Assembly (NCBI GenBank): GCA_951230915.1
Contig: OX579634.1
Span: forward strand, 52,093,570-52,157,569
Direction of reading: 5' to 3'
Source of the DNA: Antitrichia curtipendula
Taxonomy: Eukaryota > Streptophyta > Bryopsida > Hypnales > Leucodontaceae
Length of the DNA stretch: 64,000 nt
Below are positions 16,663 through 59,894 of the stretch, in pieces (positions within the stretch are counted from its first letter, which is position 1; every line of letters begins with the position of its first letter). The notes below the pieces were generated by a model. The model made no database searches and was not told the origin of the DNA. It worked only from the letters and a program-made list of their open reading frames with translations. Made by a program: the position numbers and the translations under genes.

Positions 16663-17526
16663 GTACAATGGAGTACAGTTCATTTACAAATTGTGCCATA
16701 ATTCAAATTTTATTTGCATAGTATAGAGAAATTTTGGAATTTCTTGTCTTGCATAATTAATACTCAATTTTTATGCAATCCCAATCAAGCATACCAAATT
16801 TAAGTTCCAAAAATGCAAAATTTTATTTTTGGTGAATTTTTGAAGCCAATTTGCATAGTTATATATGATATTTTATTGAAAACAATTGGTGATGATAATT
16901 CAATTGTATAGATATGTAGGAAACATTCATATACACATCTTTCATATTAAAAAACACCCCCTTAAGTAACAAAAATATTATCTAGGACAAGTTCCATATG
17001 AGGCGTCATATGACCAAACTTTGTAAAATAGATATTTTTATATTTCAAGTAGATTTTGGCAAAGTAATTGTACCATCATATTCACATTTACAAAATTAGT
17101 CACAATGTGCGGGTCAAATAGCAAATCTAGTTAAAATATATAAATATGTATTTGACAAAGTTTGGTCATGTAATGCCTCACATTTAACTCTTCCTTGCTC
17201 ATATTTTTGTTACTTAAGGAATGTTTTTCAATATGAAAGATGTGCATATGGATGTTCTTTACATATCTAAGCAATTGAATTAAAAAATTCATCACCAATT
17301 GTTTTCTATAAACTATTACGTATAACCATGCAAATTGGCTTTAAAAATTCACCAAAAATGGTATTTTGCATTTTTTGGAACATAAATTTGGTATACTTAA
17401 TTGGAATTGCGTAAAAATTGAGTATTAATTATGCAAGACAAAAAATTTTAATTTTTCTCTATAGTCTGCAAAAAAAATTTGAATGGCACAATAGGCAACT
17501 TGGAAATGGACTGTACCCCATTGTAC
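16663..17526. repeat. Foldback repeat 2, about 430 bp arms
   Basis: GTACAATGGAGTACAGT at the left end pairs with ACTGTACCCCATTGTAC at the right end. Matching continues through most of each arm, for example AACAATTGGTGATGA against its inverted copy TCATCACCAATTGTT. Frames inside (17418-17829) are by-products. Confidence 0.75.
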
Positions 17527-22668: not shown

Positions 22669-22843
22669 CACTACAAGAGAAAGGGGTATTTTAAGTAGTG
22701 TCCTAGACATCACGTCTTTTAAGTAAGTTTTTAAGTAAAATTTTACTAAAAAGATTGTTTTTCTAGTAAAATTTTACTTAAAAACTTACTTAAAAGACGT
22801 GATGTCTAAGACACTACTTAAAACACCCCTTTCTCTTGTAGTG
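22669..22843. mobile_element. Hairpin MITE with CACTA-like ends
   Basis: The left end CACTACAAGAGAAAGGGG and the right end CCCCTTTCTCTTGTAGTG are perfect inverted copies, and the interior is nearly palindromic throughout (for example TAGACATCACGTCTTTTAAG). The flanks are TGC and TGT, so the 3 bp duplication has one mismatch. It truncates the hAT frame. Confidence 0.8.
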
Positions 22844-38549: not shown

Positions 38550-40020
38550 AAAGCGAGGTTGTAACTACAGTCCGTACACAACTAATTCTATAACATTTTC
38601 ACAAAGAACTTAAACTATATTTGTTTTAAAGTTGAAATCTAGTTGTTTTAATAGTTGAATTCTAGTCAAATTCTAGACAATAATATAGTCATTTTCTAAA
38701 CAAACTCTAATTGTTTTCTAGTTGCATTCCAGTTGCTCTGTAGTTGCATGTTAGTTATTTCATAGTTGCATGGTAGTTGTTCTGTACCTGCATGCTAGTT
38801 GTTCTCTAGTTGCATATGAGTCACTCTATAGTTGCATAAGAGTCAATTTCTAGTTGCATGCGAGTCATTCTTTAGTTGCATGTCGGTTGTTCTTTCTAGT
38901 TGCATTCTAGTCCTTCTTTAGTTGAATACTAATCAGTTTTTAGTTGAACCTAGCGTGAAGTTGTCCACATCAGCAACTATGATGAACATCGGATGTAGAA
39001 TACCTTACATTAAGTTCTGTAGTTGCATATGAGTCACTCTATAATTGCATGAGAGTCAATTTCTAGTTGCATGCGAGTCATTCTTTAGTTGCATGTCAGT
39101 TGTTCTTTCTAGTTGCATTCTAGTCCTTCTTTAGTTGAATATTAATCAGTTTTTAGTTGAACCCTAGCGTACAGGTGTCCACATCAGCAACTATGATGAA
39201 TGTCAGATGTAGAAAACCTCACAGTCAGTTCTGTAGTTGCATATGAGTCACTCTATAATTGCATGAGAGTCAATTTCTAGTTGCATGTGAGTCATTCTCT
39301 AGTTGCATTTTGGTCGTTCTTTCTAGTTGCATTCTAGTCCTTCTTTAGTTGAATTTGAATAAGTTTTTAGTCGAACCCTAGCGTACAGGTGTCCACATCA
39401 GCAACTATGATGAATGTCAGATGTAAAAAACCTCACAGTCAGTTCTGTAGTTGCATATGAGTCACTCTATAATTGCATGAGAGTCAATTTCTAGTTGCAT
39501 GTGAGTCATTCTCTAGTTGCATTTTGGTCGTTCTTTCTAGTTGCATTCTAGTCCTTCTTTAGTTGAATTTGAATAAGTTTTTAGTCGAACCCTAGCGTAC
39601 AGGTGTCCACATCAGCAACTATGATGAATGTCAGATGTAAAAAACCTCACAGTCAGTTCTGTAGTTGCATATGAGTCACTCTATAATTGCATGAGAGTCA
39701 ATTTCTAGTTGCATGCAAGTCATTCTCTAGTTGCACTTTGGTTGTTCTTTCCAGTTGCATTCTAGTCCTTCTTTAGTTGAATTCGAATAAGTTTTTAGTT
39801 GAACCCTAGCGTACAGGTGTCCATATCAACAACTATGATGAATATCGGATGTAGAATACCTCACAGTAAATTCTCAGTTACACTTCCGTAATCCTACTTT
39901 TCATTCTACAACTACTTAGCAACTATAACAATATAGTCGTCAAATCTGGTGCAAATACAGAGGGATATAGTTGCAGAGTAGTTGAATAGGACACATAGTT
40001 GCATTTGAGTCGGTTGTGAA
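38550..40020. repeat. Right subterminal array, AGTTGCA words plus about 213 bp tandem units
   Basis: AGTTGCAT and related words every 15-35 bp, inverted relative to the left array. From about 38810 to 39860 they are organised into about five tandem units of roughly 210-220 bp, each with TTGAACCCTAGCGTACAGG-like sequence and CACATCAGCAACTATGATGA. Confidence 0.85.
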
Positions 40021-40779: not shown

Positions 40780-41384
40780 GTGGAGATTGAAGGATGTTCC
40801 ATTCTTAAAGTTTTGGTAGATGGAGGATCGGGAGTGAATCTGATGTTGGAGGATACGGCTTTCGACTTGGGATTTACTTCTTTCGAGGCCACAGACCAAG
40901 TATTGAGGATGGCGGATCAATCGAGGGTCGTTCCGGTGGGAAGGCTTTTTCAAGTACCAACCCGGATTGGGAAGGTAACCTATCTCCTTAACTTTGTTAT
41001 TATCCGAGTAGACAAAGGAAGACCATTTCCTTTGTTGCTTGGAAGACCTTGGTTATATTCTGCAAGAGTGATTGTAGATTGGGGACACAAGGAATTTGTT
41101 ATTGGTAAACCCAATATCCGGATTCCTTGGAAGAATGAAGAACACCAAGGGGAGACAAGTGAATCGGATGGATACATTATGGATTGGTCAGATCCAGAAG
41201 ATTCTTCTGTCACATCTATCAATTTAGTTGGAGAGTTTGGCGGGATGACTGAGGTAGATTTCGATTTTCCAAAACCTATAGTGGAACTGGGAGAGCCAAA
41301 GGAAGGAGACTTTTCTGATCCGGTTTTGAGATCCGCAGTTGGTCAAATAGAAGATCGATCACTTGGAGAAGCCAATGTTCCACT
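40780..41384 (+). pseudogene. Retropepsin (aspartic protease) of the Ty3-type element
   Basis: Contains LVDGGSGVNLM at about 40816, the active-site loop in the DGGSG form seen in Athila/Tat-type elements, and a second strand LLLGRPWLYSARVIVDWGHK typical of retroviral-like proteases. Acidic sequence follows. The 17.2 kb element interrupts the frame at 41385-41391. This enzyme would process Gag-Pol. The frame of the reverse transcriptase after the insertion is offset by one base, so pol was or became frameshifted. Confidence 0.8.
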
Positions 41385-41410
41385 AACGTTATATTCATTA
41401 AAATGAGAGG
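41385..41410 (+). repeat. Left terminal inverted repeat of the 17.2 kb element
   Basis: AACGTTATATTCATTA followed by AAATGAGAGG. It pairs with 58572-58597. Confidence 0.88.
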
Positions 41411-41751
41411 TTTCCACTGAATTGGGAGATGTTGTGACCAAGTAATTGACCTATAATGCATCAAGATATAGTAGATATTAGCGTGAAACAATGAACTAGT
41501 ACCATTAACAAGTACGTGGCTGTCTATATAGTATGAAGAAGAGGACACAAAATTCATACAATTGTGTCATTCCAATTACACTTGATTGTTTTATACAATC
41601 GTGTGATATTATCCGATGTAAACGCCTTCTAAACTTTTTTCACAGTGTTGGTAATTACTGCGAGTGTGATTCACTGCAGCATGGCAATGTATGTAATATG
41701 TGCAGATAGCTTGTGTACCTCTAGACTATGACTCTACCATATGAACATCTC

Positions 41752-42410
41752 CTATATGTGCGACTTACTCTTGAGCTTCTCCATGGCCTTCCTAATTTCT
41801 GGCCCGCGGCTATATCCATTACTAGCTTGTTTGTACTCCCGTCGTGCTTGTTGCCTCTGTAGTTCTAAGAACTTTTGATCCCACCGGTCAAAAAATGGAG
41901 AAGCGAAACTCCTGGTCACGAGTCCGCTATGCGTTTTGGTCTTTCTTACTCCTAGGACAAGAGTTCGTGGCCGAGGAATTGAGGGCACGTCAGACTGGAT
42001 AGAAACCTTCTCTTTGCACAATTCACGTGGCACTTCTAACACTGGTGACAACGCTAACACTGGTGACATGACGTTCTTGTACAATTTCCTCTGTGGTGTT
42101 CTGTTGGAGGTAGACGGTGACATCTGCGAAGCGAAAACACCTCTAGATTTTAGTGGAGAAGGGAAGCAGGATTTAGGCAGACAAGGAGTTCCACTCGGAG
42201 GACTGTCTACCACACCATCCTCAAGAGGCCTAGGAGAATAATCCATCGTGGAATTAGCTGTTGCCGCCGAGCAAAGGAAGTTTCCTGTACTCAAAATTGC
42301 GTTTTGTCCATAGTCTAGGATGGAATCAGCCGACGCCGTACAAGTGAGGCTAGCATTCATGAGCGGAGATGGGGAGAAACGCATTTTCTGAGAACAACAC
42401 ACAGTAAGAG
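41752..42410 (-). CDS. Serine/proline-rich ORF of the 17.2 kb element
   Basis: About 215 codons, probably beginning MRFSPSPLMNASL just after an acceptor-like TTGTTCTCAG. The first half is serine/proline-rich (SPRPLEDGVVDSPPSGTP), and the C-terminal third is basic and helical (FLELQRQQARREYKQ). No known domain. It is on the same strand as, and downstream of, the multidomain gene. It may be a separate gene or a last exon. Two palindrome copies (42633 and 42691) lie in the gap between them, consistent with an intron or a promoter. No in-frame stop is seen. Confidence 0.5.
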
Positions 42411-42739
42411 ATATTATCACGTGAGATTAGCAAAGCAAAGCCCACAAAATAAATGCAGTCTCAAATATCCTAGGCGAAGGCAGCAGACCGCTCAACAAGT
42501 AAGATGGACAAGACTTGAAATCAGAACAGAAGTCATATTTTAAAACCATATCTAATCATTTTATTTCACGATATATGTGGATACAAAGTTGAACGAGTAC
42601 GTGAGTTAGTACGTGAGATAAGGTATCATGTATCAGGTCGATGCGAGCTAAAGCGCACAGGAATATACATTTGCTTATTTAGGTGCCTAATAGATCGAGC
42701 CGACCTGAACTACACTATCGATACATACAGTGCACTACC

Positions 42740-43887
42740 CTATCGTAAATTCTCTGAAACTCGCATTGCATTCAAAATGCTATTGTAAGTGCGACGACTT
42801 CGTTCGTCGCAGAGCATCCTCCTCCCAATTTTCTCTTTGCTAGTCTCCCGGAATGACTTCAATCCTATGTCCCGAGCGTCTGTCAGACGCTTTAACCACG
42901 GCAACAAGACGTTGAGCAGAAACGTGTCCTTTGGACCATGTCCCTTGTAATTCCAAGAGTCCGGGAGAATGACATTCTCGGTCTTGTTCATCACGTGCTT
43001 CGCTGGGCTGTCATCAACTGCAATTGTATTTTCATGGTTGAATTTCCCTCGGTATCCCTTGAACAAGGTACTCATGTTCTTGAGGAAGAGATCTTTATTT
43101 GTGCCCGGTTCACTAAAAGTCCCGATGCACCCGAAATCATTTCTGTACTTTAATTTCGTGCAGGAGTCCTGTCCGAGAACAAACGATGGGTACTCCTGAC
43201 CCTCAAATAGGTACAAGCAAACCTCTTCTGTGGTGGACTTCTTCATGGAGCTCCAAATAGAAACAAATGCTATGCGTCCTAACTCACGGAGGAACTCAGC
43301 GCAATTTGGGCGGACCCAGATTGACTTCGGTCCCACTAACGTCAGAATGGTGGCTGAGTGCGGCTGCGTCACATCACGGGCGTGAAAGTACGAGCCCTTT
43401 GACTTCGCATCTTCACAAACACACAAAATTCCATTCAAGTCCAGGACAACGTTGAGCCACTTCTCCGGCACCTTGGACGTCAAAGGACGGTCTACCTCCA
43501 TCGATTTTCCTCGAGGACATGGAACATCCGGTCCCTGCTATCAAACATACAAATGTGCAGCCAGTTACTACGCTGCACTGACACATTTCGACACAATCTG
43601 GACATCAAGGAAGAACTAAAGAGGACGACCTACTGTCCAAATAAAAGAACAAAATGAAGTCATCCAGCCCCGGAAATTTAACCGACGAGAACGCAAAATT
43701 ACCTGCTCCTTTGGAGAAGTCAGTTGTTGAGCGGGTTTCGCCAACGGAATCTCCAAGAGCACCGCGTCCGGAATAGAGGTGTCATCACCCGGAGGTCCAC
43801 GATTTTCCACGGCGGCAGCGATCGCATGTGGAATTTCAGCAATAGGGATACGCTTTGGAGATGTTGGTGGAATCAAGACAAGTGCCT
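42740..43887 (-). CDS. Multidomain gene, exons 5-6: FCP1-type HAD phosphatase domain
   Basis: Exon 5 (43887-43703) and exon 6 (43534-42740) join in frame across GTAATT...GCAG. Exon 6 encodes a HAD/FCP1 (NLI-interacting factor-like) fold. The motif 1 region is VVLDLNGILC, with the nucleophile Asp kept but the usual second Asp replaced by Asn. Further motifs are FVSIWSSMKKST (motif 2), a lysine-containing middle (KDLFLKNMSTLFKGY) and AVDDSPAKHV (motif 3). Such enzymes dephosphorylate serines, classically in the RNA polymerase II tail. The Asn may lower or change activity. The stop is at 42740-42742. Exon 4 joins to exon 5 in phase, so this is the C-terminus of one large protein. Confidence 0.8.
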
Positions 43888-44135
43888 CTGTAGTTCAGAA
43901 ATTGCCAAGAAAGAAATCCGTAAGACATCGGTGTATTTCATCATATCGAAATGAAGTAAGTACAAAATTGATTTTCAAAATGAGAACTCAGTGGTTATGT
44001 CCACTACTAGTGATCTGCCAAAAAATGATTGTTCGTCAACCTGAAAATCTACATCCATGTTCATCCTATTCTACAAATCAGCTCGAGTCGAGCTAAATCT
44101 ATACAATTGACATCGAGCGATATTTACAAATTAAC

Positions 44136-44816
44136 CTGCAGGGGGATCTGGACCGGCCAGTGGAGCACTCTCTTGGTCTACATTGACAGCGGTGTGCTCT
44201 TGGGCCGTGACATCATCGGGGACGGAAATGGTTGCAGGCTCACTACCAGCAACCTCGCTATGCACTTCCATATCCTCTGCAGGTGGTGTCGGTGTCTCCG
44301 GGCATGCGAATTGAGGAGGAGGCGGGGCGGGAACCACGAATTCTCCAGTCGAAGGTGCAAGTGGAGGAGGAGGAGGTGCAGACATGATTTGTACTCCGGG
44401 CTCCACCAGTAAATTTGATGATCCACTATTATTGAATCCTCCTGCTGGACCTTGGAGGAGCAGCTGCTGACCCCCTGGCTGCATAGACGCGAGAGGTTGG
44501 ATTGCACCCACATGGTGCATGATGGTCTGAAATTGGTTGGCAGACTGCTGTTGTTGCACCAGGAACAACTTCTTTAACTCCTCCATTTGCCTCGCACTCT
44601 CTGCAAACATCTCCAGGTTGGACCTGCGGTCATCTATCCGGTCCTTTCTGAGTTGTTGAATCTCCGCCTCTCTGATATCGTCTTCCTCATTCATTCTCCG
44701 CCTCTTCTTCTCTCGAGCTGTGGGCGACGGCGAGGGTGACGGCTGCGTCCTATGAGCTGTCCGGATGAAGCCGACGATCCCCGGATGCTTTGTGAACCAA
44801 ACACCGTTGGTGTAGT
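44136..44816 (-). CDS. Multidomain gene, exon 4: basic, coiled-coil and proline-rich region
   Basis: Starts after an AGCAG acceptor with NYTNGVWFTKHPGIVGF, followed by a serine/proline repeat and a basic cluster (TAREKKRRRMNEEDD) that looks like a nuclear localisation signal. A charged helical segment (EIQQLRKDRIDDRRSN) leads into a glutamine-rich stretch and then proline-rich disorder (APPPPPLAPST). It ends at CCTGCAG/GTTAAT. The phases of exons 3, 4 and 5 fit exactly (205 + 681 + 185 bases is a multiple of three). It is likely a flexible linker between the methyltransferase-like and phosphatase parts. Confidence 0.7.
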
Positions 44817-44932
44817 CTGCTCAGTTGGTACATCATCATCGTCGACATTGTCGTTCAGCTCGTGGTCACTGTCCGATGAGATGTCAATATTTTCATTTGC
44901 TGCAGGCTGCGACTGCCTGGATGGTGTTCAAC

Positions 44933-46619
44933 TGGCTTCTGCCACCGCCTTCCCCTTCCTCTTTGACAATGACGGCGTCCCTGACCGATGAGGCCTCTTC
45001 GGATACATGGCCTCGTCAACAAAATAGCCGGATGGTAGGAAGTCGTTCTTGTCAAGAATCTTAGCCGCGCTCGCAATCCGTGTCCAGTCGTCGGACTCAT
45101 CCGAGTCCCCCACCGCAAACACTGTGAGCTTGCTCATCTGACGGAACGAAACATACACAGTCAATTGCAGATTTACCATTCAGATCGGGTCGAGCTGAAC
45201 GAGAGTGACAAGCAGTTTATTTCAGGTCGACTCGACCTGATTGACAGACCGGATATATTACCAATGAACGTGAATGGGAGTATTACTTACCATTGCAGCA
45301 CACGTGAATTTCGACCCAGCGAAGAGTGACAGAACGTTCGCCCCAAGTACGCAAAATTTTCGAAGAATATGGATATAGAACTCCATCCGCAGCTCTGTGT
45401 TGTTGATTCTGAATTCGAGCTCATTGTACAGCCGCGGCTTCGTGTATGTATCTGTATTGGGCGCTTCATACGATGCCCTGAGGTCGACATAGCTCCTGTT
45501 GTTCGGGCTCTGAAGGAATGTGAGATGAATTTTCTCGACCGCCTTCTTATTGGTGACGGAGTAGTCGCCCATCCTTTCTTGACTTGCTGGCATGTAGTCC
45601 GAGAATGTCATCTTGTACTCCTTCAACACATCATTGGACTCGATGTAGTGGAGAAGTTGCGTGTGCTCCGTCATGTCCGACGCTATCAAAAGCCAATTGC
45701 GGACGTCCTCAAGGTGCGGTTGACCCTTCTCCTGGAACGATTTTAAGGCAGCTGTGAAGAACGGGTAAGACGGCGTGCACTTCTCCTTGTTCAGGACGAT
45801 AGGTGTGTACCTCAAGTCCCATACACCGAATACCATGTTCTTCAAGTGCTCGGCAGTCATCGTCCCCTTTGGCCAATCCTGGTGCTCTTCTGAGTTTATG
45901 TCATACGGTCGGTAGTGAGCGGCTGACATTGGCGGCACGAAGTTATTCCTGCGCTCAAGGAACACCTTGAAGAATTGGGCCGCGTACGGTGACATTTCCT
46001 CCACGGATTTGTTCTTGGCTCTTGGCTGCTTGGCTTTGGCCTAGTAATCGTCTCTAGGTTGCTCGAGAAGGACGTTCATCGTGGCACTCGTGAAGTTTCG
46101 GCTTTTCTTGAACTGCCTCCACTTCTCCACGTTCAACTCGTCCACGGCGTTCATTAGTCCCAGTGTCGTGTCCACGAGATGCAATGCCCGCTTCACGAGG
46201 TATTTGTGCTTCCGGCGCTCCACCCACTCCTTGCATGTGTAGCAGCTCTCGAGCACCCCTGTGATGAGTTTTATTGTCACCTTCGGATACTTCTTGTTCT
46301 TTCTTCCTGGCTCCTGGTGCAGGATGTGCTTGGCCAGCTTCGTCAGGTCATACAGCGAGAGATTACCAAGCCACTTGAAGAATTCATGGGTCAAGTTCCC
46401 GCTCTCCGACTTCCAGGTTGTTCTCGCGTTGAACTTCATGCGGGTGTCTGGGTCCATGAGCTCCCCGTGCGCTGCGCTGGAAATCACCTCACTCCAGAGA
46501 CTGAAGACATCATCGGGAGCGGTTATAATCTTGAGCTCGTTCACAATCTTTAGTTTCTCTTCTGCGTCTTTACCCTTTGCTGCCTTCTGGGCCTTCACAA
46601 CATCGAGCATGGCGAATCG
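44933..46619 (-). CDS. Multidomain gene, exons 2-3: DNA methyltransferase-like region, one in-frame TAG
   Basis: Exon 2 (46619-45291) is helical, then approaches a Rossmann-type motif: LRMEFYIHILRKFC followed by GANVLSLFAGSKFTCAAM. This matches the SAM-binding FxGxG region at the end of N6/N4 DNA methyltransferases (VLDLFAGSGTT...A). The second glycine is lysine, so SAM binding may be altered. Exon 3 (45137-44933) continues SKLTVFAVGDSDESDDW, like the strand after motif I. WDLRYTP is a weak candidate for the DPPY-like motif. The single TAG (46041-46043) splits an otherwise open frame; CAG is the simplest ancestor. Intron 2 contains two palindrome copies. Confidence 0.6.
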
Positions 46620-46777
46620 CTTGTACATTGCCAAGGAGAATTCTTGCATGAGCAAGATGCACCACGGAGTAGTTAGTAAGCTAGGTTCAGGTCGAGTCGA
46701 CCATAATTGTACTCTTGCGTAATGATACGAATTGAGTATGTTCTGCAGTTCAGATCGAGCCGACCTGAAGTGCTTAC

Positions 46778-48214
46778 CTTGAACATTGTCTTGTTCAGTT
46801 TGTTGTCCGCATTTCTCCTGGCGTTGGATTTCTTTCCAACCGGTGCAACTTCTTTGGGATTTCTGGGTCTCCCTATAATTTCCCAGACCTTCGTCGCTCC
46901 GAGGATGTTTGTGGACCATGACGGCTTCATGGCAACAAAGTGATTCACTCGGTTGTAGTACGCGGAGATGGCACGGAGCTTTTCACCATCTGATGACCAG
47001 ACCACGTAGCACTCCCACTGGCGGAAGTGCTTCACAATCTCTTCGTCGAGTCCCTTTGCGACCATCAGCTTGCTCGCAGTTACACTGTGTTGGCCGTTGA
47101 TGATGTAGAACTTGTTGTTCTTCAGGAGTGGCCACTGATCGGGTGTGGGTTTCTCATTCTGATCCACGGGCATCACACATAGTGTTTGCTTTGTGGACTT
47201 GTCAGGCATCTCCCACAGAAACGTCATGACGTCCTCGGCCAATCTTTGCTCATGGCTCCGTATGTTAAGATGTGCAGGTGCCTCACTCAGTTGGTCAATG
47301 GGTATAGTCTTTTTCTCCTCCCTGTCGAAGACGTATGCGTCTGTGCAATTCTTCCAGTACGCTTTGTACGCAGCCGTGGAGGCGTCGTAATCATGTTTTC
47401 GCTTCGAGTCGTATGCGGCAGGTACATCAGTCACCACGGACACGAAGCTTTGTTCTCCAGCTGCAGACACGCTTGTTTCCTTGTCGAGTGGGACGATTTC
47501 TGACAGCGATGCTAGGTTGCTTTTCCTTCGGCCTGAATGAGTTGTGCCCGCTTGCTTGCTCCTTCTTGTACCGCGACTCTGTTGCGTTCCTGGAGTTCCC
47601 ATTGACCCCTGCCCTTCTACTGCGCTCGGGCTCTCAGTGGAGACCAACCGCGGGGTCATGTCCTTCTGCTTTGCTTGGAGTTTTGCCTTCAGTACAACAA
47701 AGTCGACAAAGAGAATCCTGAGCTTAGCGCACAAGCTCTTCCCGACGACAGTCTTCCCGCTAGTCAACTTGAAGAAGCCAAGGTCAATTTTCTTCTCTAG
47801 TTCCGGGATCTCTGTTCGGTAGTCTGTTGGTTCCAGGGACCGTATGAAGTGCGAGATGTTGAACTCTACCTTTGAGGAATCAAGAACCAGCGTGAAGTGA
47901 TACTGGTCTTCTTCCTTTACTCCTGTCTGTGCTGTCTTGCAGTGAATTTTAATTATTGGCCCGAGGTCGTGGACAATTTCCTTAATTTCTTCTTCATAGG
48001 ATATCGGGAAGTACGGCTCGATTTCCTTGTACTTCACGGCGAAGCATATGATATTCTTGAACGGAATCATGTTCAGACTCCAGAACTGAACCCTGTCTGG
48101 GTTCTGGAACTCCCAGTATTCCCCTTCTTGGTCGAAGTCATCTCTATCCTCCTCGACATTGAAGTTCGCGCATCTCTTGTAAAATGCCTCCAGCTTTAAT
48201 ATCTGGTCTTCCAT
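46778..48214 (-). CDS. Multidomain gene, exon 1: ParB-like region
   Basis: ATG at 48214 follows a TTCTGCAG acceptor, so a 5' exon (possibly 49126-49190) may precede it. The first 200 residues are an unrecognised globular part. A serine/threonine-rich basic linker comes next, and at about residues 365-385 NNKFYIINGQHSVTASKLM. A G-x-H-(R/S) box with this context is the hallmark of ParB/Srx-like N-terminal domains (usual form DGxHR...A), which bind nucleotides and, in some families, cut DNA. It ends at TTCAAG/GTAAGC. The acceptor at 46620 keeps phase and follows a perfect TACTAAC branch site. Intron 1 contains two palindromes. Confidence 0.65.
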
Positions 48215-48233
48215 CCTGCAGAACATTGTTCAT

Positions 48234-49130
48234 ACACACTTGTTACATTCAGGTCGAGTCGAGCTGATTATCGCGTGTCGACGATTTTATAAAGACCATG
48301 CATCATTCACGCAGTGTTTCTTTTTGCTACTATTTGTTGGCTGGTATCATTATTCCGTGGGTATTTACTGTCCAGGGAACTCTTTTTAGGTCGACTCGAT
48401 CTAATCAGGTTATTGTTTAGTTAGTTCAGTCTGTGTCATAATATGTTTAGTGCTGTACTTTCTCCTATTCTCTTTTCCAGTACATGTTTTGTCTGTTATT
48501 TGATCATATTGATTTCTCTCCCCACTCTCTGTATAGGTTAGGTTGTTTTAGATCGAGTCGACCTAAAATATTCAGTTGGTTTTTTGTCTTGCTTGTTTTA
48601 TGATGGTACCTGTCTTTTAGATTTGGGCACGTTGTATAGCCGATTTATTTGGTTTGACAGTGGTCCTAGAGCTTGATTGCTGCTTCGTTATTCAGGTCAA
48701 GTCGACCTGAATGCCTTGTTTCTCTTTAACTTTGCTTTGTTTTTTCTCGTTCAGGTCGAATCGACCTGAATTGTTGTGGATGGTTGTTATTATTTTGCTC
48801 TCTGCAATGATATTTGGTTTGTTCTGTCGCGGTTTTGTTTGTGATTATCGCAACTGACGTCTTTTCAGGTCGGGTCGACCTGAATAACATTATTATTACT
48901 TCAATTGTTTTATGCGTTCCTGTTTTTTGACCTTGATAATCGACCTGAACTGTCATCGACCTAACCTGCGGATGATTTTTATTTTTACTAATCCCTAGTC
49001 TGAATTTCTAGAGTTTCACCGAAATACATCCCTACGCTCTCATGCTAAATCCTAAACCCTTAACGATCAACAAGATCCTAAGCGATCAGCAAGACCCTAA
49101 ACCCTAAGCGATCAACTGGAGCATACCTGC
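48234..49130 (-). other. Leader intron or promoter of the multidomain gene, palindrome-rich
   Basis: Between an acceptor at 48215-48222 and a donor-like CTGCAG/GTATGC near 49126 on the minus strand lies about 0.9 kb holding seven palindrome copies. A small exon at 49126-49190 (reading QHKGNQGLLHLLHC in the phase that fits) is possible. AAACCCTAA words occur at 49045-49110. Confidence 0.45.
48247..48957. repeat. Palindrome cluster, left (6-7 copies)
   Basis: Copies at 48247, 48385, 48546, 48690, 48749 and 48862, with a degenerate one near 48937. The centre base varies, while the arms AGGTCGA/TCGACCT are kept with occasional A/G change. Spacing is about 60-160 bp. Confidence 0.9.
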
Positions 49131-49190
49131 AGTGAAGAAGGTGAAGAAGTCCTTGATTTCCTTTATGTTGCGAACTGAAACCTGCACATT

Positions 49191-50780
49191 CGAAGCAATA
49201 CAAGCTTTGAGTTCCCGTTAATAAAGAAGATCAATCCCACAATAAAAACTTGTGAACAATTTTGAACAAATTTGAATAAATTCATGTATCCACGGACTCT
49301 GAGTATAATCAAATTAGACGCAGGTTTAAGAAAACTAAGAACACAATATTCAAAAGACACGACGTTCTACGTTTTTCCCATTCCACCACCTCCACCAAGA
49401 ACAATCCAAACCCGAAACTTTGCACCGAAGCAGAATCCAAAAGGAACAAAGCACGACAGGAGGAACAAAGCACGAAGAACAATCTAAACCAAAATTCTGA
49501 ATGCAGTCCGCAAGTTCTAAGAAAACACGAAACACATTCTTCACAAGGTTTAGGGTAAGCCAAAATTCATGAATACAAAATCAAAAACTCTAAAATCGAG
49601 CACCCATGAATACAAAATCAAAAACTCAGAAATCAAGCGCAAGTGTATGACAACAGAAGACAATGTTACAAAAATAGAAACTCGATGCAATACCTGGCTT
49701 CTTCTGCGAATTCGACAAACTCAAATTCGATGCACTCTTCCGCAAAATCACACGCGCAATATCCCTCTTCCGCGGAAGTCTTGTGATCCTCTTCCGCTCC
49801 TGATGAAATCGCAACACCCGACGCCGCACACTCTTTCGCAAAATTTGACGCCCCCGACGCAGCACGGAGTCTGTCTGACGGTGTCCCTCCTCCACACGCA
49901 CTCTTCCGCAAAACAATACAGACGCACTCTTCTCTAAAAATCACACGCCCGACCCTCCGACGGTGTCCCTCCTCCGTCGAATCACCGTAGGCGCATCACG
50001 AAGCAGAACGAGGAGGAAAAGAGGAAATCGAAGTCGCACAAACGCAGCGTACCACAAAGCACAATCCAGGAGGAAAAGACGGGATCAAACTCTGACAAGC
50101 ACGCACAGAAGAAAAGAAGAACGACGAGGAATACGCAGCACGACGAGGACGCAGGAAAGAGGGTATCGACGAAACCCTAGCCTGTTTCGAGAAGCCAAAA
50201 CCAAAATCCGGGCAGCCAAAGCCTATACCCGGGAGCCAAAGCCTATATCCGGGAGCAAAAACCTTACCCGGGCGCTAAAACCCTTACCTTGCAGCAGAGA
50301 ACCTTAACATGGAGCAAAAAATTTGCCCGGCAAAACATACCCTTACTCATACCCTAAACCTTACCGGGGAGCCCAAACCCTTACCGGGGAGCCCAAACCT
50401 TTACCGAGAGCACAAACCCTTAACACTCGGGAGCAAGAAATCCTTCCTCGGGAGCACAAATCCTTATGTAGGAGCACAAATCCTAAACACTTACCCATTT
50501 TATTAGAGCAGGTCTTTAACCCTTACACAACGAATATAGGTGACTATAGAAATCATCCATTTTCATCACCGTCGGAATCATTCATTAGACAAAGGAATAC
50601 AAGATGCACTCCTCAGAAGTAAAATAGTTGTGCCGTATTTACTCTATTCAGAACCAAATGTTTGGATCATTCAATTACTGCAGTGAATACTCCCCAAAAC
50701 ATTCTACATTATGCATGTCATTAGAAAGTTAAATTATGAGTTAAGAATTAAAAATGTTCAAAAGAACTATAAAAGAACTA
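49191..50780. repeat. Intergenic core with GCGGAAGAG-type and CCGGGAGC-type short repeats
   Basis: 49690-49990 is full of CTCTTCCGC words on the plus strand. 50195-50480 is an irregular array of GGGAGCCAAAACCTTACC-like units. Open frames here on both strands follow the repeats and are not convincing genes. Confidence 0.55.
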
Positions 50781-51350
50781 CTCCCTCCGTCCCAAAATAA
50801 TCTTCCTGTTAGACAAAATATTCTGGATTAAGAATAAAAATAACATTTTTAAAGCCTGTTTGGCATTACATGAAGAGTTTGGTGCACTCATATTGCCCTT
50901 GAAACTTTGAGTCTTGAAGCCCTTTGTAAAGTGTAGTTTTGGATTATTGAAAAGTGAAATTTTTTGGGTATTTTCAAGGAGCACCAGTGGTTATTTAATT
51001 ATTCAGTGTGAGGTCGTCATTTTGTGGGTAGTTAGTATAAGTGAAAGACCATATGTAGACCTATATTTTGCCTCCCCAAACCTTCATCTCCTTCAATTAG
51101 ATAATATTCAAAAAGAGATGCAAAAAATAAAAACAAGAAGTGTTGATTGACCCCTTCAACCATTTTATTTGTCTTTTGATTAGTGATTGCATAAATGGAG
51201 GGGGAACTATCGCTTGGAATTGCTTTGTTAGTCCTAGAAACCAACCAAATGTTAAATTTGACCAATTTGCAGTTTCCAAAGTACAACAAGAAAATCATTT
51301 TGGGACAAAAAAAGAAGGCCAACAGGAAGATCATTTTGGGGCAGAGGGAG
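50781..51350. mobile_element. Stowaway-type (Tc1/mariner) element, 570 bp
   Basis: Left end CTCCCTCCGTCCCAAAATAA. The right end is a close inverted copy (CATTTTGGGGCAGAGGGAG). TA stands on both sides (50779-50780 and 51351-51352). It has no transposase gene. It is inserted within the 17.2 kb element. Confidence 0.88.
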
Positions 51351-51446
51351 TAATATATAAGGCCATAAATAAGCTTTCAAAAATACTCCTTAAATGACAA
51401 CTTTAGAAACTAGTGCCTGCGAAGTTTTTAAGGAATAATTTCAAGT

Positions 51447-52553
51447 AGATTCCCCATGTGGGGATTATTTACAACTTGTACATTTTGTTGAACTAGTCAA
51501 TTGGCCAACAAATTCCATGACATTTGAATTTGGATCCCCAAACTACAGGGCATGGCGGATCCTTTTAATATTTCATGCACGTAATAAAATTAGCATATTG
51601 CGGCAAGAATGGAATCCCCACATGGATTCTACATGTGGGGATTATTTACAACTTGTACATTTTTTTAAACTAGTCAATTGGCCAACAAATTCCATGACAT
51701 TTGAATTTGGATCCCCAAACTACAGGGCATGGCGGATCCTTTTAATATTTCATGCACGTAATAAAATTAGCATATTGCGGCAAGAATGGAATCCCCACAT
51801 GGATTCTACATGTGGGGATTATTTACAACTTGTACATTTTTTTAAACTAGTCAATTGGCCAACAAATTCCATGACATTTGAATTTGGATCCCCAAACTAC
51901 AGGGCATGGCGGATCCTTTTAATATTTCATGCACGTAATAAAATTAGCATATTGCAGCAAGAATGGAATCCCCACATGGATTCTACATGTGGAGATTATT
52001 TACAACTTGTACATTTTTTTGGACTAGTCAATTGGCCAACAAATTCCATGACATTTGAATTTGGATCCCCAAACTACAGGGCATGGCGGATCCTTTTAAT
52101 ATTTCATGCACGTAATAAAATTAGCATATTGCGGCAAGAATGGAATCCCCACATGGATTCTACATGTGGGGATTATTTACAACTTGTACATTTTTTTGGA
52201 CTAGTCAATTGGCCAACAAATTCCATGACATTTGAATTTGGATCCCCAAACTAGAGGGCATGGCGGATCCTTTTAATATTTCATGCACGTAATAAAATTA
52301 GCATATTGCGGCAAGAATGGAATCCCCACATGGATTCTACACGTGGAGATTATTTACAACTTATACATTTTGTTGAACTAGTCAATTGGCCAACAAACTC
52401 CATGACATTTGAATTTGGATCCCCAATCTATAGGGCATGGCGGATCCTCTTAATATTTCATGCACGTAATAAAATTAGCATATTGCGGCAAGAATGGAAT
52501 CCCCACATGGATTCTACATGTGGGGATTATTTACAACTTGTATATTTTTTTGA
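51447..52553. repeat. 177 bp satellite array, about 6.25 units
   Basis: Units of exactly 177 bp (GGATCC at 51532 and 51709, and so on) with few differences. Each unit holds a 12 bp-arm hairpin, AATCCCCACATG ... CATGTGGGGATT. 177 is 59 codons, so a frame stays open through the units, but its sequence simply mirrors the repeat. Confidence 0.95.
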
Positions 52554-54306
52554 ATAAAAAATTGTGTAAGTTGCAAATGGGGTTAGGAGTTTGAGTTCAT
52601 GAAATGTTTATGGTCATGCGCATTTTTGGGTATTTTAGGTGCAAAAGAGAAAAATAAACTAAACCAACCATATCCTGTACTTTAGGGTATGTTTATGCCA
52701 TTTCGAAAGTAACATGAACATGAATATTTAATTTTTCATGATTAAATTAAATGTCTTTGCCTTATTCGCAACTTCTACATTTTTTTCTCTCATACATTCA
52801 TGTGTGAGTTTCTCGGGTTGACAATTGTAGGGCCTAAAATACATAATCATTCTCTTTGTTTCTAATTTGCTCACAACATTCATAATGTGAGCATGATTAA
52901 TTAAAAATTTAATGAAGTAAGAGGCTTTGCCTCATTCGCAAATTAAAAATTTAATGAAGTAAGAGTCTTCACCCCATTCGCAATTTCTACAATTTATTTC
53001 TTCTACTTTCACATGTGAACTTCATGGGTTTAAACTTGATTGTGGGCTTTGAAGTACATGATTCTAATTTTCTTGTTTGCGCAAGGCTTTTCCAAAGCAA
53101 CATGAGAATAATCAAACACAATTTCATGAATTCAAAGCCTTTGTTTTACTTGCAATTTATGAAATTCTTTTCTCTTAAAGTTTTGCTTATGAATTTCATG
53201 TTTTTTTAGGGCTTGAGACTGTTGAGAGTCTAGAAGAAAATTGCTTGAGTAATATTATTTTTCAGTTGAAGCCTTCCCAGAAACAAGGATGATTTGAAAA
53301 ATTTCATGAAAAGAAAAGTCTTTGCTCAATTTGTAACTTCTGCAATTTTTCCCCAGGTAATTGGAAAGGATCCAGTAACTGAAAGAAATTCATTAAGGAT
53401 GTCTAAAAAGGTCCAAACCCTGAATCCTAAACCCTAAACCCTAAACCTGCCAAAAAATCAATTTATGAAAAGTTTAAAACTCCAGAGTTCAGAGTGGTGA
53501 CGAGCGAGAGAATCTGTTGACTTTGGCCCTCTGGAAGACATTTCCCACATTTGATGCTGTTGGAACAAGTCTAAATAAGAATTAAATAATTGACCCCCCT
53601 ACCTTTACGCCGTGTCGTGTTCGTATGACTTTATTTTTTTAGAGAACGAATCTACAAAACACGCAGCCACCTAAATTCAACGGATTAGATTAATGCCACC
53701 AGCTGTCCGTTTGTTGTAGTCCGCAAATACTAGTGCATGCATCTAAGTCCAAGTACATGCCCACAACTTCATGCATGACGTGTGTGATTTCGAAAATTAT
53801 GTACTCTGCTTCCCGCCCTCCCATTCCCGCCAAGAAGTTGTCGGATGTTGCCCACGTCCGGTTTAGGGTATTCTCTTTCTCATTCGCTTGACACTGCACC
53901 TCCGAGCGCAAGCTGTCCTTGTTCGTGGGCACTTGTTTCAGCTTTGTTATTGACAGTCATTCAAGTGTTGTGCACGCAGGGTTTTTGCTTACTCAAAGAT
54001 TCAGTGCGATCTAAGGGGCTTGGGTTTTAAATACGTCTTTGTCGACTCAGTAGTTAATTCGTAGGATTTCCAGTCCATTAGTTATTGTCATGAAGACAAA
54101 GATGTACGCTTCCGATCGTGGGTATCACTTGTTCAATTTAGTAGGTCGATGCTCTTGTGTTGCAAGGAGATGGTTGTTAGTAATCGCTGTCGACCGATGA
54201 TAAGTTTCGTTATGCACTGAAGGAGTCGGTGTGAACGTGGTCCCTATTTTACCGCCGTAAAACACGGAATGAGCTCGTAATCAAATTACCCCGTAATGTT
54301 CGGAGC
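52554..54306. other. Non-coding spacer with degenerate repeats
   Basis: Five or more diverged copies of a phrase like GTCTTTGCCTCATTCGCAA occur between 52750 and 53350. AAACCCTAAACCCTAAACC at about 53427 is telomere-like. A minus ORF at 53690-53932 has no recognised domain. Confidence 0.45.
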
Positions 54307-54950
54307 CATTCAGGTCGAGCCGACCTGAATAATATAATGAGTAACGTATTTTCTCCGACCCAAATAGAGTTGATATCCCCTCTTCGGAATAACATGATAA
54401 CCTCATCAATTTAGATCGACTCGATCTGAAACGGCGAACAATATGTGGCTGGTGGATTCTTTTCGTATATCGTGATCGCGATCCGTCATATGTTTTGTTC
54501 GTATGTGCATACAATATTTCATGATTTACTTATTAGGTCGACTTGACCTAAATGGTTTAAATTGGAGTAATGTCTGTCACATGAATTGAGGCAAACTTAA
54601 TGCAGTGACTGACCTGGGTCCATCTGAATTCAGCCTAGACATATCATTCGTTGGAAATGAATTCGGTGTGAATTATAGATTCAGTTTAGGTCGACTCGAC
54701 CTGATAATGAAGCTGTTGAGGTCTTAGTCTTCTCATGTTATCGAGAGCGTCATAGTCTTGTAATTTATTTCGTTTTATGGATGGGAGCATTCAGCTCGAA
54801 TCGACCTAATTAGCATTGGTGAATTTGTATAGAATAGCTATTTCTGTTGTCTTTCAATATATTACGTATGAACTGTATTTGTCACAGTTTTGGTACCTTC
54901 CTACTTGAAGGTAGTTGCATATTATGAACTCTAAGGTCGACTTGAGCTTA
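54307..54950. repeat. Palindrome cluster, right (6 copies)
   Basis: Copies at 54307, 54409, 54531, 54685, 54788 and 54930, spaced about 100-155 bp, directly upstream of the DUF7869-like ORF at 55030. This mirrors the cluster at the 5' side of the multidomain gene. Confidence 0.9.
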
Positions 54951-55029
54951 CATTTGTCTTGTCAGTTTTACCTCTCACACTACAAGCAGTTTACCTTGAT
55001 TACTTTGACTTACCAACTACATTATTGAT

Positions 55030-57933
55030 ATGTCATCAGATGCAATGGATTCCTCGGCAGACCTAGTGGACATGGTGGATTCATCGGACGATGAGTACTA
55101 TCCACGGGCAGAGGAAGTCTTATTATTGGAGTCGTCAGACGATGAACTCCTGAATGCGGATGGAATGATTGCTAACGTCCCAGATTGTGAAGGTCTTCCG
55201 CGTAGGCTCTGGAATACTCGGGTTGTGACTCTGTACAATAAAGCCGGCCTGCTCGTTGGTCAAGGTACCTGCCATAGTGTGAACTCTGACCTTGTTCTCG
55301 GTGTCAGTGGTCCTCTTGGAGACACTCATGTAGCTGTGCACATTTCCAAGACATTTTCTGAGAGTGACTTGCCAAAAGAACAAGAGTGCTCGCTATTTGC
55401 TTGGCCTATTCATTTAGTCCATTGCCGTGGGGCCAGTCTACGTGATCATGAGGCTCGAGATAATTTCAATTGCCTCCAAGCGGCTCTCCTAAATCCACCA
55501 TCTTTGACATCTGCACGCCCGTATACAAGTACCGTCCAAAATCCACCCCGCGAGACTCCTGCAAGAACAAAGGAACTACTCACTCAAGATTCCATCAACT
55601 TGGTGTCCAGCAAAATATGTTGTCGGCTGAATTGTGTTCAGCCATTCCCCAGAGATAAAATACGAGCCTTTCGTGAACGCATGTACCAGAATTCAACCTT
55701 CAAGCACAGAGCCTTTATGAAAACGGAAGTGCACAGACAAACCCATCTTGACCAACGTGGAAGAAGAATGGTAACAATTGAAGAGATACCGGTGTGCATG
55801 CGAGCATGGATGCATATTTCAGGGGTCCCAGAATCCACCTTCTTCCGCTATCAAACATACATGAAGGTCGGACGGGAAGCAATGGAGCACGGCAACAAAG
55901 GATTGGTGAAGCCAAGGAAGCATACTCAACAAGCTACTGCAACATTGAAATGCATCCTAGAGAAAGAGGCGGATCACATGCCACATCGTACGAAGACGCT
56001 GAAGTCGGGAGAGAAGGTTGTATCCATGATTCTCCCCTCCACGTTCCAGTGGAAGGGTAAAATGAAAGAACTCAACGAAGCGAATGCTGCTTTTGGGTTG
56101 AAGGAGTTCTCAATTTCAAACTTGAGCAAGATTAGATGTTCAGCGTTTCCAGAGTATGAGGTGAAGAAACCAGGGGACAATTTTGCACGTTGCGCTACTT
56201 GTGACAAATTGCAAGAGCTTAGGAGGCGTGCTCTTGCTGGGTCTGTCATTGCTTTGAAGTGGTCGCGGAGGTTGGACAAACATCTAGCAATTGCTCATGC
56301 TCATCGAGAGTTGTACTATGCAAACCGCTACCGATCACTTACTTCACCGCACGAGTGCCTCACAATCATGCATGACAAAATGGACCACACGAAAACAGCT
56401 TGTCCAGTCTTCTCCCACAAGAGTAAAGATGTTGATGGTCTAATGAAGTTGCCTGTGTCTGTCACAGGCATGATTGCGCATGGTCATGGAGATGTGCATT
56501 ACGCACATTATGGCTTGGATCTATTCACACATGATTCGAACTACACCATTGGCTCCATGGCAAAGTTGTTGCAAGATTTGGAGTTGCCTCCCAAGTCTTC
56601 TTCTCGGCAGTTGCTTGTGGGTTTGGGGTCCACCAATTTGTTTTGTGCAGTGCTGAAGGGAGCTGAGATGTGCGAAAATTCACTTCCTTCACTGCCAATC
56701 AACTTAGTTCCAGCAACACCTTTACCCCCTATTCTCAATGTGCAAATGGACAATGCCACAGGCGACAACAAGAACAGATATGTTTTTTGTATTTGGTCTC
56801 TTCTTGTTGCGAACAAGATCTTTCGAGAAGTGTATGTGAACTTCATGATTGTGGGTCACACGCACGATGATATTGATGCGTTGTTTGGAAGATGGAGCAT
56901 GCTCTTGAAGAAAGAGAACTTTCCAACAATCCCGGCCCTCATGAAGTCCTTCATGGATGTAGAGTCCATTCCTACTATCCCTCATCTCATAGAAGAGGTG
57001 CCCGATTTCAAGGGTTTCATTGTTGGTAAATGGATGGACGGCGATGAGATTCTCATAGGACACACAAGACCACAACAAGTGAAGTTCTATCTAGATTCGG
57101 CGAGTTGTCCAGTCATGAAGTACAAATTGAAGTGCACGGACGAAGATTGGTTGGGCAAGGATGGCGGAGGGATTAAGTTGTGGAAAAAAGACGCTGAAGG
57201 GCGAAGTCAATGGCTGCGCAGTGTACCGTTGTCAGTTCCACAAAAGGTAATGAAAGGCGTGGAAGACATTGTGAAAGGTGTGTCTGGATTCGTAAAGTAT
57301 TGGGAGAATCTATGCAATGCAGACGTCACTGGAGAATGTCGTAGACGCTACGAGCCAGTTGTGCGCTATTGGTATGGTGTGAAGGTTGCTCTGCAGGAGC
57401 CACTACCATTGTCCACTGTTTTGAAAGACGGGTTCTGGCCAACTACTCGGGTACAAGCAACAAAAGCAGATCAATTAGACGAAGATGGCGAGGACCTTGA
57501 AGAATATGGTGTGGATGATGCTTATGTTGGGCCTTTGAGGGATCGCCCACAACCATCCTTCAGGGTGGCGCGGGATCTCTACGAAGAATACTTTGTTGCA
57601 GTTCGACCTGCAGATGGTGAAAGTCAACCAGTTTGGATTGCCAGGGCGTTGTCCGATCCGAACTGCAATCCTGAGAAGCCGAATTGCGTGCTCATTCAAT
57701 ACTTTTGTCCAACATCAAGGAATCAGGATGTTTGAGATTTCTATACAGGATGGGACAGCGAAAGAGGTCTACGTTGGAAGGTTGATGAAACCGAACCACC
57801 TATTTGGGAGGAAACAAACGCTTTGATGACAGCATGGAAGTTCCTGAACAGAAGAGGTACTCGCAAATGTAGGATCAAGATTTCTACAGCTCAGATTGAA
57901 GTCATCAACCAAAGCTTGGCTTCATATACTTGA
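55030..57933 (+). CDS. DUF7869-like protein, candidate transposase, one in-frame TGA
   Basis: A 967-codon frame from ATG 55030 to TGA 57931 has a single internal TGA (57733-57735). The sequence after it (DFYTGWDSERGLRWKVDETE) is clearly still protein, and CGA to TGA would explain the stop. The N-terminus is acidic. A CATCDKL zinc-knuckle-like motif is at about residue 389. The C-terminal half has LNVQMDNATGDNKNRYVF (about 570) and VGHTHDDIDALFGRWSML (about 608), the signature of DUF7869 proteins. I infer an RNase H-like catalytic fold with acidic residues at LDLFTHD, QMDN and DDID. Palindromes crowd its 5' region. It is the only plausible recombinase in the element. Confidence 0.75.
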
Positions 57934-58571
57934 CATTCTGGAATATTACCCTCGAATTAGTTATAGTATGTTAATTTCATATATTGGATATTTACTATTT
58001 TTTTGTCTTCATTTTAATTTAAATATACCTACTATTACGTGTTCCTACATTCTCTTTTTGGGATATGTTATATTATTTAACTTGCTTAATGTATGTCCAA
58101 AATAGATTTGGAAACGAAATGCGATTGAGAAAAAGGGCAGTGGATATAACCACTCTTTAGTTTGTTAACATGTGAAGCACTTGTCACAATTTGGGATGGG
58201 GGGCCCGTTGGTTGTTACAACTTTCCTGCCTGCAAAGCTCACTTAGCAGTACCAAGTCATGTATCTCTTTCAGTCACTCATACAATTTCAACGGGAATCG
58301 AACTCGGACCACCTGAAGGAGATGAATAGCTTCTCACAACCAAACGTTTAGCTCATGACTTGGTGTTCAAAAATGGTTTTAGAATTCACTTGTATGATCT
58401 TAAACGATAGTATAACCCAAACTTGATTGTATTTGGAGACAAAACTCTCATTTTAATGGAAATTACAATGGTACAACTAATAAATGTAGTGATTCTCAAC
58501 CTGAATTGTCAACATTTAATATTTGAATTTTGAACATGTAAGCGGACAATATTATTTTTAGAGGTTCCCAC
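57934..58571. other. 3' region of the 17.2 kb element
   Basis: AT-rich and non-coding. On the minus strand, 58190-58380 contains a tRNA-like B-box phrase (GAGTTCGATTCCCG) and an A-box-like TGAGCTAAACG, so a SINE-like insertion is likely. Confidence 0.45.
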
Positions 58572-58597
58572 CCTCTCAAAATAATGAATATAACGTT
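58572..58597 (-). repeat. Right terminal inverted repeat of the 17.2 kb element
   Basis: CCTCTCAAAA then TAATGAATATAACGTT. The reverse complement matches the left end at 23 of 26 positions. Confidence 0.88.
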
Positions 58598-58599
58598 CA

Positions 58600-59894
58600 T
58601 TGTCAACTGATTGGATAAGAAGACAGATTCAGGAGGGCAGTTTATCTAGTGTGAGTTTGAACGGAGGAAAGACCAACGTTCCATGGAGTGAGTTCCAAGT
58701 CCAATCGAAGGAATTGGAACCGGATTGGATCAAGAACATAGTGAATCCCTCGAACTATGAGAAGGTGGAGATAGAACCAGGAAAGTGCTTTTTCTTAGGG
58801 AAATCCTTGAACAGAGGTGAGAAAAGGGGCTATGTTAGGTTACTAAAGAAATACCTAAAGGTATTTGCTTGGATTCCATCGGACCTTAGCGGAATTCTAC
58901 CGGATCTAGGAGAACATCGGATTAATCTAGTTGATGGAGCTGTTCCGATCAGACAGCGTCAGTATAGACTCAATCCGAAGTACTCGCTCATGGTAAAGGA
59001 GGAAATTGACAGATTGTTAGAAGCTGGATTTATCTATCCGGTGAACAACTCAGAATGGGTTTCACCTATTGTGGTTGTTCCTAAAAAAGTGGGAGCAGAT
59101 GGGAAGGTGAAGATCCGGGTTTGTCAGGATTTTAGGAAACTAAATGCTTCAACAAAGAAGGATTATTTTCCGTTACCTTTTACAGATATAATCTTGGATC
59201 AAGTATCCGGTCATGAGTGTTATAGTTTCCAAGATGGATTTTCCAGGTACAACCAAGTATCAATCCGTTTGGCAGACCAGTTGAAGACTACTTTCACTAC
59301 GGAGTGGGGAACATTTGCCTTCAACCAGATGCGTTTGGATTATGTAATGCTCCTGGAACATTTCAAAGGCTGATGATGGATATCTTTCGAGACTTCCTCA
59401 GATACTTCTTGGAGGTGTTCATTGATGATTTTGCGGTGTTCAGCAAACAAGACAACCACCTGGAGTTGTTGGAGAAGACCTTCATCAGATGTCAAGAAAC
59501 CGGATTGAAGTTACATCCGGGTAAGTGCTTCATGGGAATGCAATCTGGGATTTTGTTGGGACATGTTGTTAGTAAACGTGGATTGGAAGTTGATGTGGAT
59601 AAGGTCAAGGCCATTCTAGCCTTGGTAGCTCCTACTTGTGTAAGCGGATTTCTAGGATGTGTTGGTTACTATAGGAAGTTCATTGAGGGTTATGCCAAAC
59701 TAGCTAGTCCTTTGACTGAACTTTTGAAAAAAGAAGTAGAGTTCACATGGACTGAGGAGAGACAAAGAGCTTTTGAGGACTTGAAGAGTAGATGGGATCA
59801 TTGGGAAGAGTTTGAACAAGATGGTATCCGCGCACAAGACAGATTGGGACCGGAAGCTAGAATCCGCAGTCCACGTTTACAACACTTCAGATAA
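58600..59894 (+). pseudogene. Ty3-type reverse transcriptase, frameshifted
   Basis: The first frame holds the fingers/palm start (EWVSPIVVVPKKVGADGKVK, RVCQDFRKLNA). At about 59330 a one-base loss shifts the frame. The second frame carries FGLCNAPGTFQRLM, the catalytic FIDDF and the later LGHVVSKRGLEVD and FLGCVGYYRKFI blocks. Normally RNase H follows TWTEERQRAFEDLK. Here the sequence jumps at about 59790 into integrase C-terminal sequence, so RNase H and the integrase core are deleted. The enzyme would copy RNA to DNA; this copy cannot. Confidence 0.88.

Follow-up and report, generated by a model that had tools for sequence, protein, structure and literature searches.

VANDAL elements of Arabidopsis are multi-gene plant transposons of the MULE group, and their VANC proteins bind short, family-specific motifs, which lie mainly in introns and further non-coding sequence of the encoding element, and reverse its silencing (PMC5735166, PMC10398659). 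Kolobok elements make TTAA-specific 4-bp target duplications and have 5'-RR..YY-3' termini (PMC9587614). Here we describe a 17,213-bp element in a stretch of 64,000 nucleotides from Antitrichia curtipendula (hereafter the window; C2:52093570-52157569 of a 400 Mb genome in 303 contigs). By description it is nearest to Kolobok, with which it shares a 4-bp duplication and RR..YY termini (AA..TT). Like VANDAL, it is a multi-gene plant transposon with short, family-specific motifs in its non-coding DNA. However, its motifs are single dispersed palindromes, whereas the VANDAL motif, 9 bases long, is repeated densely and in one direction (PMC5735166, PMC10398659), and no MULE transposase domain was found in the element by Pfam in the pieces scanned; the likeness lies in motif placement and symmetry and is an analogy, not membership.

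The element is a terminal-inverted-repeat DNA transposon, one of many copies in this genome. With a probability of about 0.75, we read it as a member of a large transposon family, in which a DUF7869 protein would do the cutting and the protein of a second, leftward gene would be an accessory factor binding the palindromes.

Insertion site and target duplication

The element (window 41385-58597) is inserted within the coding part of a long terminal repeat (LTR) retroelement on the plus strand (29383-62347; LTRs at 29383-31289 and 60441-62347; flanks AAGCG/AAGCA). A preliminary description of this DNA had placed the insertion in pol, with coding sequence on both sides. The right side now has support: the retroelement has a gag-type zinc knuckle and a reverse transcriptase match right of the element (Pfam PF00078, E 7.8e-11, 59304-59891). 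The open reading frame (ORF) left of the element resembles an aspartic protease on visual inspection alone, and a Pfam scan of this ORF and of the ORF at 58600 gave no match for either. The insertion is probably young, because the two LTRs of the host retroelement differ at just 4 of 1,907 positions. That the element entered the retroelement later is a simpler order of events than that the retroelement carried the element along.

The target-site duplication of the window copy is imperfect, with CACT on the left (41381-41384, plus strand) and CATT on the right (58598-58601, plus strand), identical at three of four bases. When the flanks are joined over one 4-bp target, the pol frame is open (ANVPLSTDWIRRQ). 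We also tried AACGTT as a 6-bp duplication, and no duplication at all; both were rejected, as the joined pol frame then stops after a few residues. The joined flanks (300 bases) match six other places in the genome, where the retroelement is present without the insertion, over practically their full length, with 94, 90, 77, 76, 72 and 70% identity, and in the four of these uninterrupted sites that were read (L083-L086) the joint has no gap. The closest two carry CACT (L083) and CATT (L084), and a single transition, in either direction, would account for the mismatch in the duplication.

Terminal repeats and copies in the genome

The inverted ends match at 23 of 26 bases, as first described, and the first 16 are perfect. 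The left repeat (AACGTTATATTCATTAAAATGAGAGG) lies at 41385-41410 on the plus strand and the right repeat (AACGTTATATTCATTATTTTGAGAGG) at 58572-58597 on the minus strand, and both ends recur in other copies. The interior of the repeat has a subterminal copy at 58445-58458 on the minus strand (CATTAAAATGAGAG), a 14-nt exact match to the left repeat. Also at the right end, a 14-nt inverted pair at 58551-58585 (ATTATTTTGAGAGG vs CCTCTAAAAATAAT, 13 of 14) may form a hairpin. The bases adjoining TATATTCATTA in 30 loci are mostly AACGT, otherwise AACAC, AACAG, AACAT or AATGT. AACGTT thus belongs to the inverted repeat and not to a target duplication, because the flanks change among the 30 loci and the adjoining bases stay AACGT-like.

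With up to three mismatches, the end pattern TATATTCATTANNNTGAGAGG has 2,252 matches in the genome (1,171 forward and 1,081 reverse), compared with 542 (250 and 292) for the same pattern read backwards as a control; copy numbers are approximate. From the places listed, 16 convergent end pairs were picked by eye, 12 of them 14.4-18.4 kb apart, and one further copy, on contig C218, was added. An exact 4-bp target duplication, and none longer, flanks 12 of these 17: TTAA, TTGT, ATAG, AACT, CAAG, ACAT, ACTA, TTTT, ATGA, TTTT, ATAA and TTGG, with no fixed sequence. Besides, two left ends in the same direction lie 554 bp apart at C5:1372772 and C5:1373326 (L041, L042), perhaps a nested or tandem insertion.

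Ten further copies of 14.4-18.0 kb, being ten of the eleven duplication-positive pairs among the 16, were compared with the window copy. All ten match the DUF7869 gene and, within the leftward gene, exon 1, the NIF region and the last exon; the order is that of the window copy, and the two genes are divergent. The proposal of a large transposon is borne out, because many copies share the ends, the 4-bp duplication, the uninterrupted sites and the conserved two-gene content. Different ends in other copies and simple collinearity of the region were both looked for and not found.

The rightward DUF7869 gene

The rightward gene (55030-57930, plus strand, 967 codons) encodes the candidate transposase. 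Its protein matches PF25273 (DUF7869) with E 2.3e-40 and 138.7 bits, far above the curated cut-off of 26; the family is named as a domain of unknown function. The gene had been recognized as DUF7869-like, and its extent needed correction: in the window copy a TGA (57733-57735) breaks the frame, and the gene continues to 57930, with similarity running past the TGA in L004 (see below) and other copies.

With the pattern GHTHx-D-[IV]-D, eight loci were found in prokaryote genome bins. One of them, L004, is a contig of 4.3 kb assigned to a cyanobacterial bin, and it encodes 963 aa that are 52% identical over residues 49-963; a DUF7869 family 55-56% identical to L004 also exists. We judge L004 to be a stray eukaryotic contig, because the same bin contains leftward-gene relatives with seemingly intron-split coding parts. 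L007, L008 and L009, contigs in Bacteroidetes bins, are distant DUF7869 relatives. In general, L004 and L007-L012 are eukaryotic-looking contigs in prokaryote bins (AVDCRST_MAG81, Bacteroidetes), likely by contamination.

The motifs [HST]D[GK]M, Q[MI]D and GHTHxDID are common to the aligned relatives that cover them (L004, L007, L008, L009; 22-67% identity). In the window protein they mark a putative catalytic core (56374-56877, plus strand) with D449 (HDKMD), D574 (QMDN) and D614/D616 (GHTHDDID), and a helix-turn-helix-like stretch and cysteine pairs can be seen by eye ahead of this core. In a low-confidence structure model, the first two D are placed at or just after strand ends and the third in the helix following the next strand, which would be, at this low confidence, the order expected of RNase-H-like transposases. 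From its context, its conservation and this acidic core we infer that the DUF7869 protein is a DDD/E-type transposase. The claim that it is the recombinase thus gains support from the acidic core and from conservation, short of proof. DUF7869 is not mentioned, and hence has no transposon context, in the limited open-access literature searched.

At genome scale, a first look turned up 2,148 candidate DUF7869 places, which are not copy counts; the best 50 were scored and have 74-100% identity. Among the 49 besides the window, ten have no stop in the aligned stretch (query ending at residue 901), and two of the ten further copies have no stop over all 967 codons. Of the best 50 of 2,148 places, 28 are on contig C5 (37.2 Mb, 9.3% of the assembly), perhaps a non-recombining (sex) chromosome. 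Three places (C6:34457687, C9:25435915 and C10:24047911) have equal extent, near-equal score and one TAG each, and the same three contigs carry parallel retroelement hits, which suggests a shared duplicated segment.

The leftward gene

The leftward gene lies on the minus strand, and its exons were set by reading. Exon 1 (46781-48226, 482 codons) contains the stretch F-x-x-I-N-G-Q-H-S-V-x-A-S. Exon 2 (45291-46649) has GTAAG/AG borders and an in-frame TAG (46041-46043); both of its parts match L010 and L011 and the first part also L012, with 34-45% identity. A further exon region follows (44131-45142; in-frame TGA at 44928-44930, frame change near 44.8 kb), then a NIF (CTD-phosphatase-like) domain (42740-43535; Pfam PF03031, E 2.9e-17) and a last exon (41752-42390), which is present at least in part in all ten further copies. 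The preliminary description had called this a multidomain gene; the NIF domain adds to that claim, and the window copy turned out to be interrupted by the two in-frame stops and the frame change.

For exon 1, 832 candidate places were obtained in the same first look (again not copy counts), 88 of which were scored. In a second subfamily, with AACAC ends, DUF7869 is 76% and exon 1 is 61-62% identical, so that between subfamilies DUF7869 is more strongly conserved than the leftward gene. The C218 copy (14,046 bp, TTGG duplication, DUF7869 74%) retains part of exon 2 and the NIF and last-exon regions, and the part of it that was read shows no exon 1. Among six gap-free copies, the ratio of nonsynonymous to synonymous substitution rates (dN/dS) for DUF7869 is 0.22-0.29 when one diverged copy is compared with the other five, which resemble each other and among which it is 0.50-0.77. 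For exon 1, also in six gap-free copies, the values are 0.10-0.17 for copies from different subgroups and 0.30-0.47 for copies from the same subgroup. The lower values between than within subgroups indicate that both genes are kept in spreading lineages and decay after insertion.

A palindrome family in the non-coding DNA

The shared palindrome family, also part of the first description, is confirmed: with up to four mismatches, 19 sites are found in the 64 kb window, all within the element, and three base-shuffled windows give 1-2 each. The core TCGAnTCGA occurs ten times inside the element and not once in the other 46,787 bp. Seven sites are located between exons of the leftward gene (42633-46768; at 42633, 42690, 44078, 45180, 45222, 46687 and 46750), six upstream of the leftward gene (48249-48883) and six upstream of the DUF7869 gene (54310-54950). 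All 19 are in non-coding DNA, for which P is about 3e-6 under uniform placement (coding share 8,345 of 17,213 bp, exon borders set by reading). No palindromes occur at 48.9-54.3 kb, nor within 1.2 kb of the left end or 3.6 kb of the right end of the element. The ten other copies carry 14-19 sites each.

The arms of the palindrome differ between lineages. The window lineage has TYAGG-TCGAnTCGA-CCTRA and the second subfamily TTAGG..CCTAA; C218 has TCAGGTCGGwCCGACCTGA, L004 TTAGC..GCTAA, L010 and L011 TCAGC..GCTGA, and L012 TATCC..GGATA, six versions overall. For 32 sites chosen by the core alone (C218 sites, with their different core, excluded), the two arms of a site are complementary at 139 of 160 flanking positions, five per site. 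In 5,000 shuffles of the right arms the number was 106 on average and at most 127, in a test that ignores kinship among sites. These symmetric differences between lineages point to a dimeric binder.

Proposed mechanism and points against it

In our model, the DUF7869 protein would bind the element ends and cut the target with a 4-bp stagger, and the gaps would then be filled. With less certainty, the leftward protein may be a sequence-specific DNA-binding accessory factor for the palindromes in the introns and promoter regions of the element, and by binding them it might keep the element expressed, as VANC does. The symmetric arm differences might then reflect co-evolution with the dimeric binder. 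Alternatively, the DUF7869 protein itself could read the palindromes in promoter regions and introns. Anti-silencing or autoregulation appears to be the likeliest role of the palindromes, by analogy, though we hold this tentatively and at appreciably less than even odds.

Several observations weigh against this model. For the ends, 5 of the 17 pairs have no exact duplication, namely the window copy (CACT/CATT) and pairs 48.1, 23.2, 37.6 and 19.6 kb apart, and most of the ten further copies contain stops or frame breaks. For the DUF7869 core, the structure model is weak (mean predicted local distance difference test score, pLDDT, 46.6; predicted template modelling score, pTM, 0.50), fold searches neither reached E <=0.001 with any match nor had a transposase among the results shown, and the third acidic residue is ambiguous, either D614/D616 or a later E. 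For the palindromes, the sites are related to one another, represent few lineages and differ even within one of them; flanking positions one and four, for instance, pair in just 60% and 50% of the sites of the window lineage. For the leftward protein, Pfam gives nothing above cut-off besides NIF. L010, a relative of exon 2, weakly matches HTH_Tnp_Mu_2, the Mu transposase DNA-binding domain (E 0.078, below cut-off); such a match would fit DNA binding by the leftward protein and also a recombinase role for it, so that either protein might read the palindromes or cut DNA.

Comparison with known superfamilies

The superfamily list was taken from PMC4455052 and the definitions from PMC12730594, PMC10045372, PMC2836005 and PMC9587614. 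Among the superfamilies whose defining ends and duplication were compared by published description, none fits all features of the element, in line with the preliminary description; the MuDR and Harbinger types overlap with it in duplication length only. Ginger1 and Ginger2 share the 4-bp duplication, but of their TGTNR termini, Gypsy-type integrase and, for Ginger1, CCGG/CCGT targets (PMC2836005) none was seen in the element, whose ends begin with AAC. The element has neither the CC..GG termini and TTAA-specific duplication of piggyBac (PMC10045372, PMC9587614), nor the CAC..GTG termini and 3-bp duplication of CACTA/EnSpm (PMC12730594), nor the TA duplication of mariner/Tc1 (PMC10045372). It differs likewise from hAT (5- to 8-bp duplication, hAT domain) and KDZ/Zisupton (8-bp duplication), both described in PMC12730594, and neither a hAT nor a KDZ domain was matched in it by Pfam. 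PIF/Harbinger has a canonical 3-bp duplication (PMC12730594), with 0-4 bp in relatives, and MuDR-type elements have 4-10 bp (PMC10045372). The element fits these last two ranges with its 4 bp and has no Harbinger-type Pfam match; length alone would allow distant kinship with either group. Helitrons have neither terminal inverted repeats nor a duplication, and the element differs from them in having both.

The element might be a distant offshoot of a superfamily already named (Kolobok, hAT, MuDR, the P clade or another), in which GHTH would be the C/DxxH motif and the catalytic E would lie downstream. We regard this as possible, with the odds clearly against it. The features shared with Kolobok, the overlapping duplication lengths and, in our own reading, the position of GHTH after the second D, as C/DxxH would have it, argue for such a branch. 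Against it, Kolobok duplications are specific to TTAA (PMC9587614), which is seen in just 1 of 12 duplications here, and the DUF7869 protein matches no Pfam transposase family at E <=1 (window protein) or <=10 (L004). Judged from limited open-access literature and from Pfam, the element is possibly undescribed; by published description it differs from each of the superfamilies compared, and it may form a separate superfamily.

Other explanations

It is unlikely that the roles of the two proteins are exchanged, with the leftward protein as recombinase and DUF7869 as accessory. The leftward protein is present in the ten further copies and under purifying selection, and the weak match of L010, below cut-off, would fit a recombinase, but profile scans found no recombinase domain above cut-off in it, it is less conserved than DUF7869 between subfamilies, and one of its domains is phosphatase-like. 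The C218 copy has ends and a duplication without a detectable exon 1, which is indecisive, as movement in trans or later loss of the exon would have the same result.

We consider a palindrome-linked partition or spreading system, in which a ParB/DGQHR-like leftward protein would load at parS-like palindromes, quite improbable. The INGQHSVxAS stretch, which resembles ParB/DGQHR-type proteins, is invariant in four relatives, and the palindrome family would suit such loading, but ParB-type families gave no match in Pfam, NCBIfam or PDB sequences.

An integrated virus or Maverick-like element, which the large size and several coding blocks would favour, is highly improbable: the ORFs of the window element scanned with Pfam (outside the spacer) have no capsid, polymerase or packaging domain, no relative was found in viral contigs, and the duplication is 4 bp, versus 6 in Polinton (PMC10045372). 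A chance inverted repeat in collinear DNA is practically refuted by the genome-wide ends, the duplications, the ten copies and the uninterrupted sites.

Other features of the window

The spacer of the element contains an insertion at 50779-51352 that has TACTCCCTCCGTCCCAAAATAATC as its ends and a 32-nt inverted repeat (91%), which we take to be Stowaway-like, and a tandem array at 51448-52554 (177-bp unit, 6.3 copies, 97%), where alignments to other copies differ. Inside the retroelement, a 214-bp tandem array of five copies with TAGTTGCATG-like units is located at 38801-39874. Elsewhere in the window, a long self-complementary stretch lies at 16663-17526 (893-column alignment at 80%), with similar ones at 336-668 and 22669-22843. 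Two ORFs contain DUF4218 (1296-1889, E 1.2e-30) and DUF659 (20616-21956, E 6.6e-30), domains typical of CACTA and hAT elements.

Conclusion

DUF7869 may be the transposase of a separate eukaryotic superfamily with 4-bp duplications and relatives in other plants and protists, which in plants would travel with a partner gene and with palindromes for self-recognition, the arms of which would co-evolve with a dimeric protein encoded by the element, giving each lineage a private address for expression or for protection from silencing; we put this only just short of an even chance. The element places DUF7869, named as a domain of unknown function, in the context of a mobile element and offers transposition as a role that can be tested; it also accounts for an abundant class of repeats in this genome. 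It may further be a second case of a plant transposon whose own non-coding DNA holds recognition sites specific to each lineage, and the generality of sequence-specific anti-silencing could then be tested beyond Arabidopsis.

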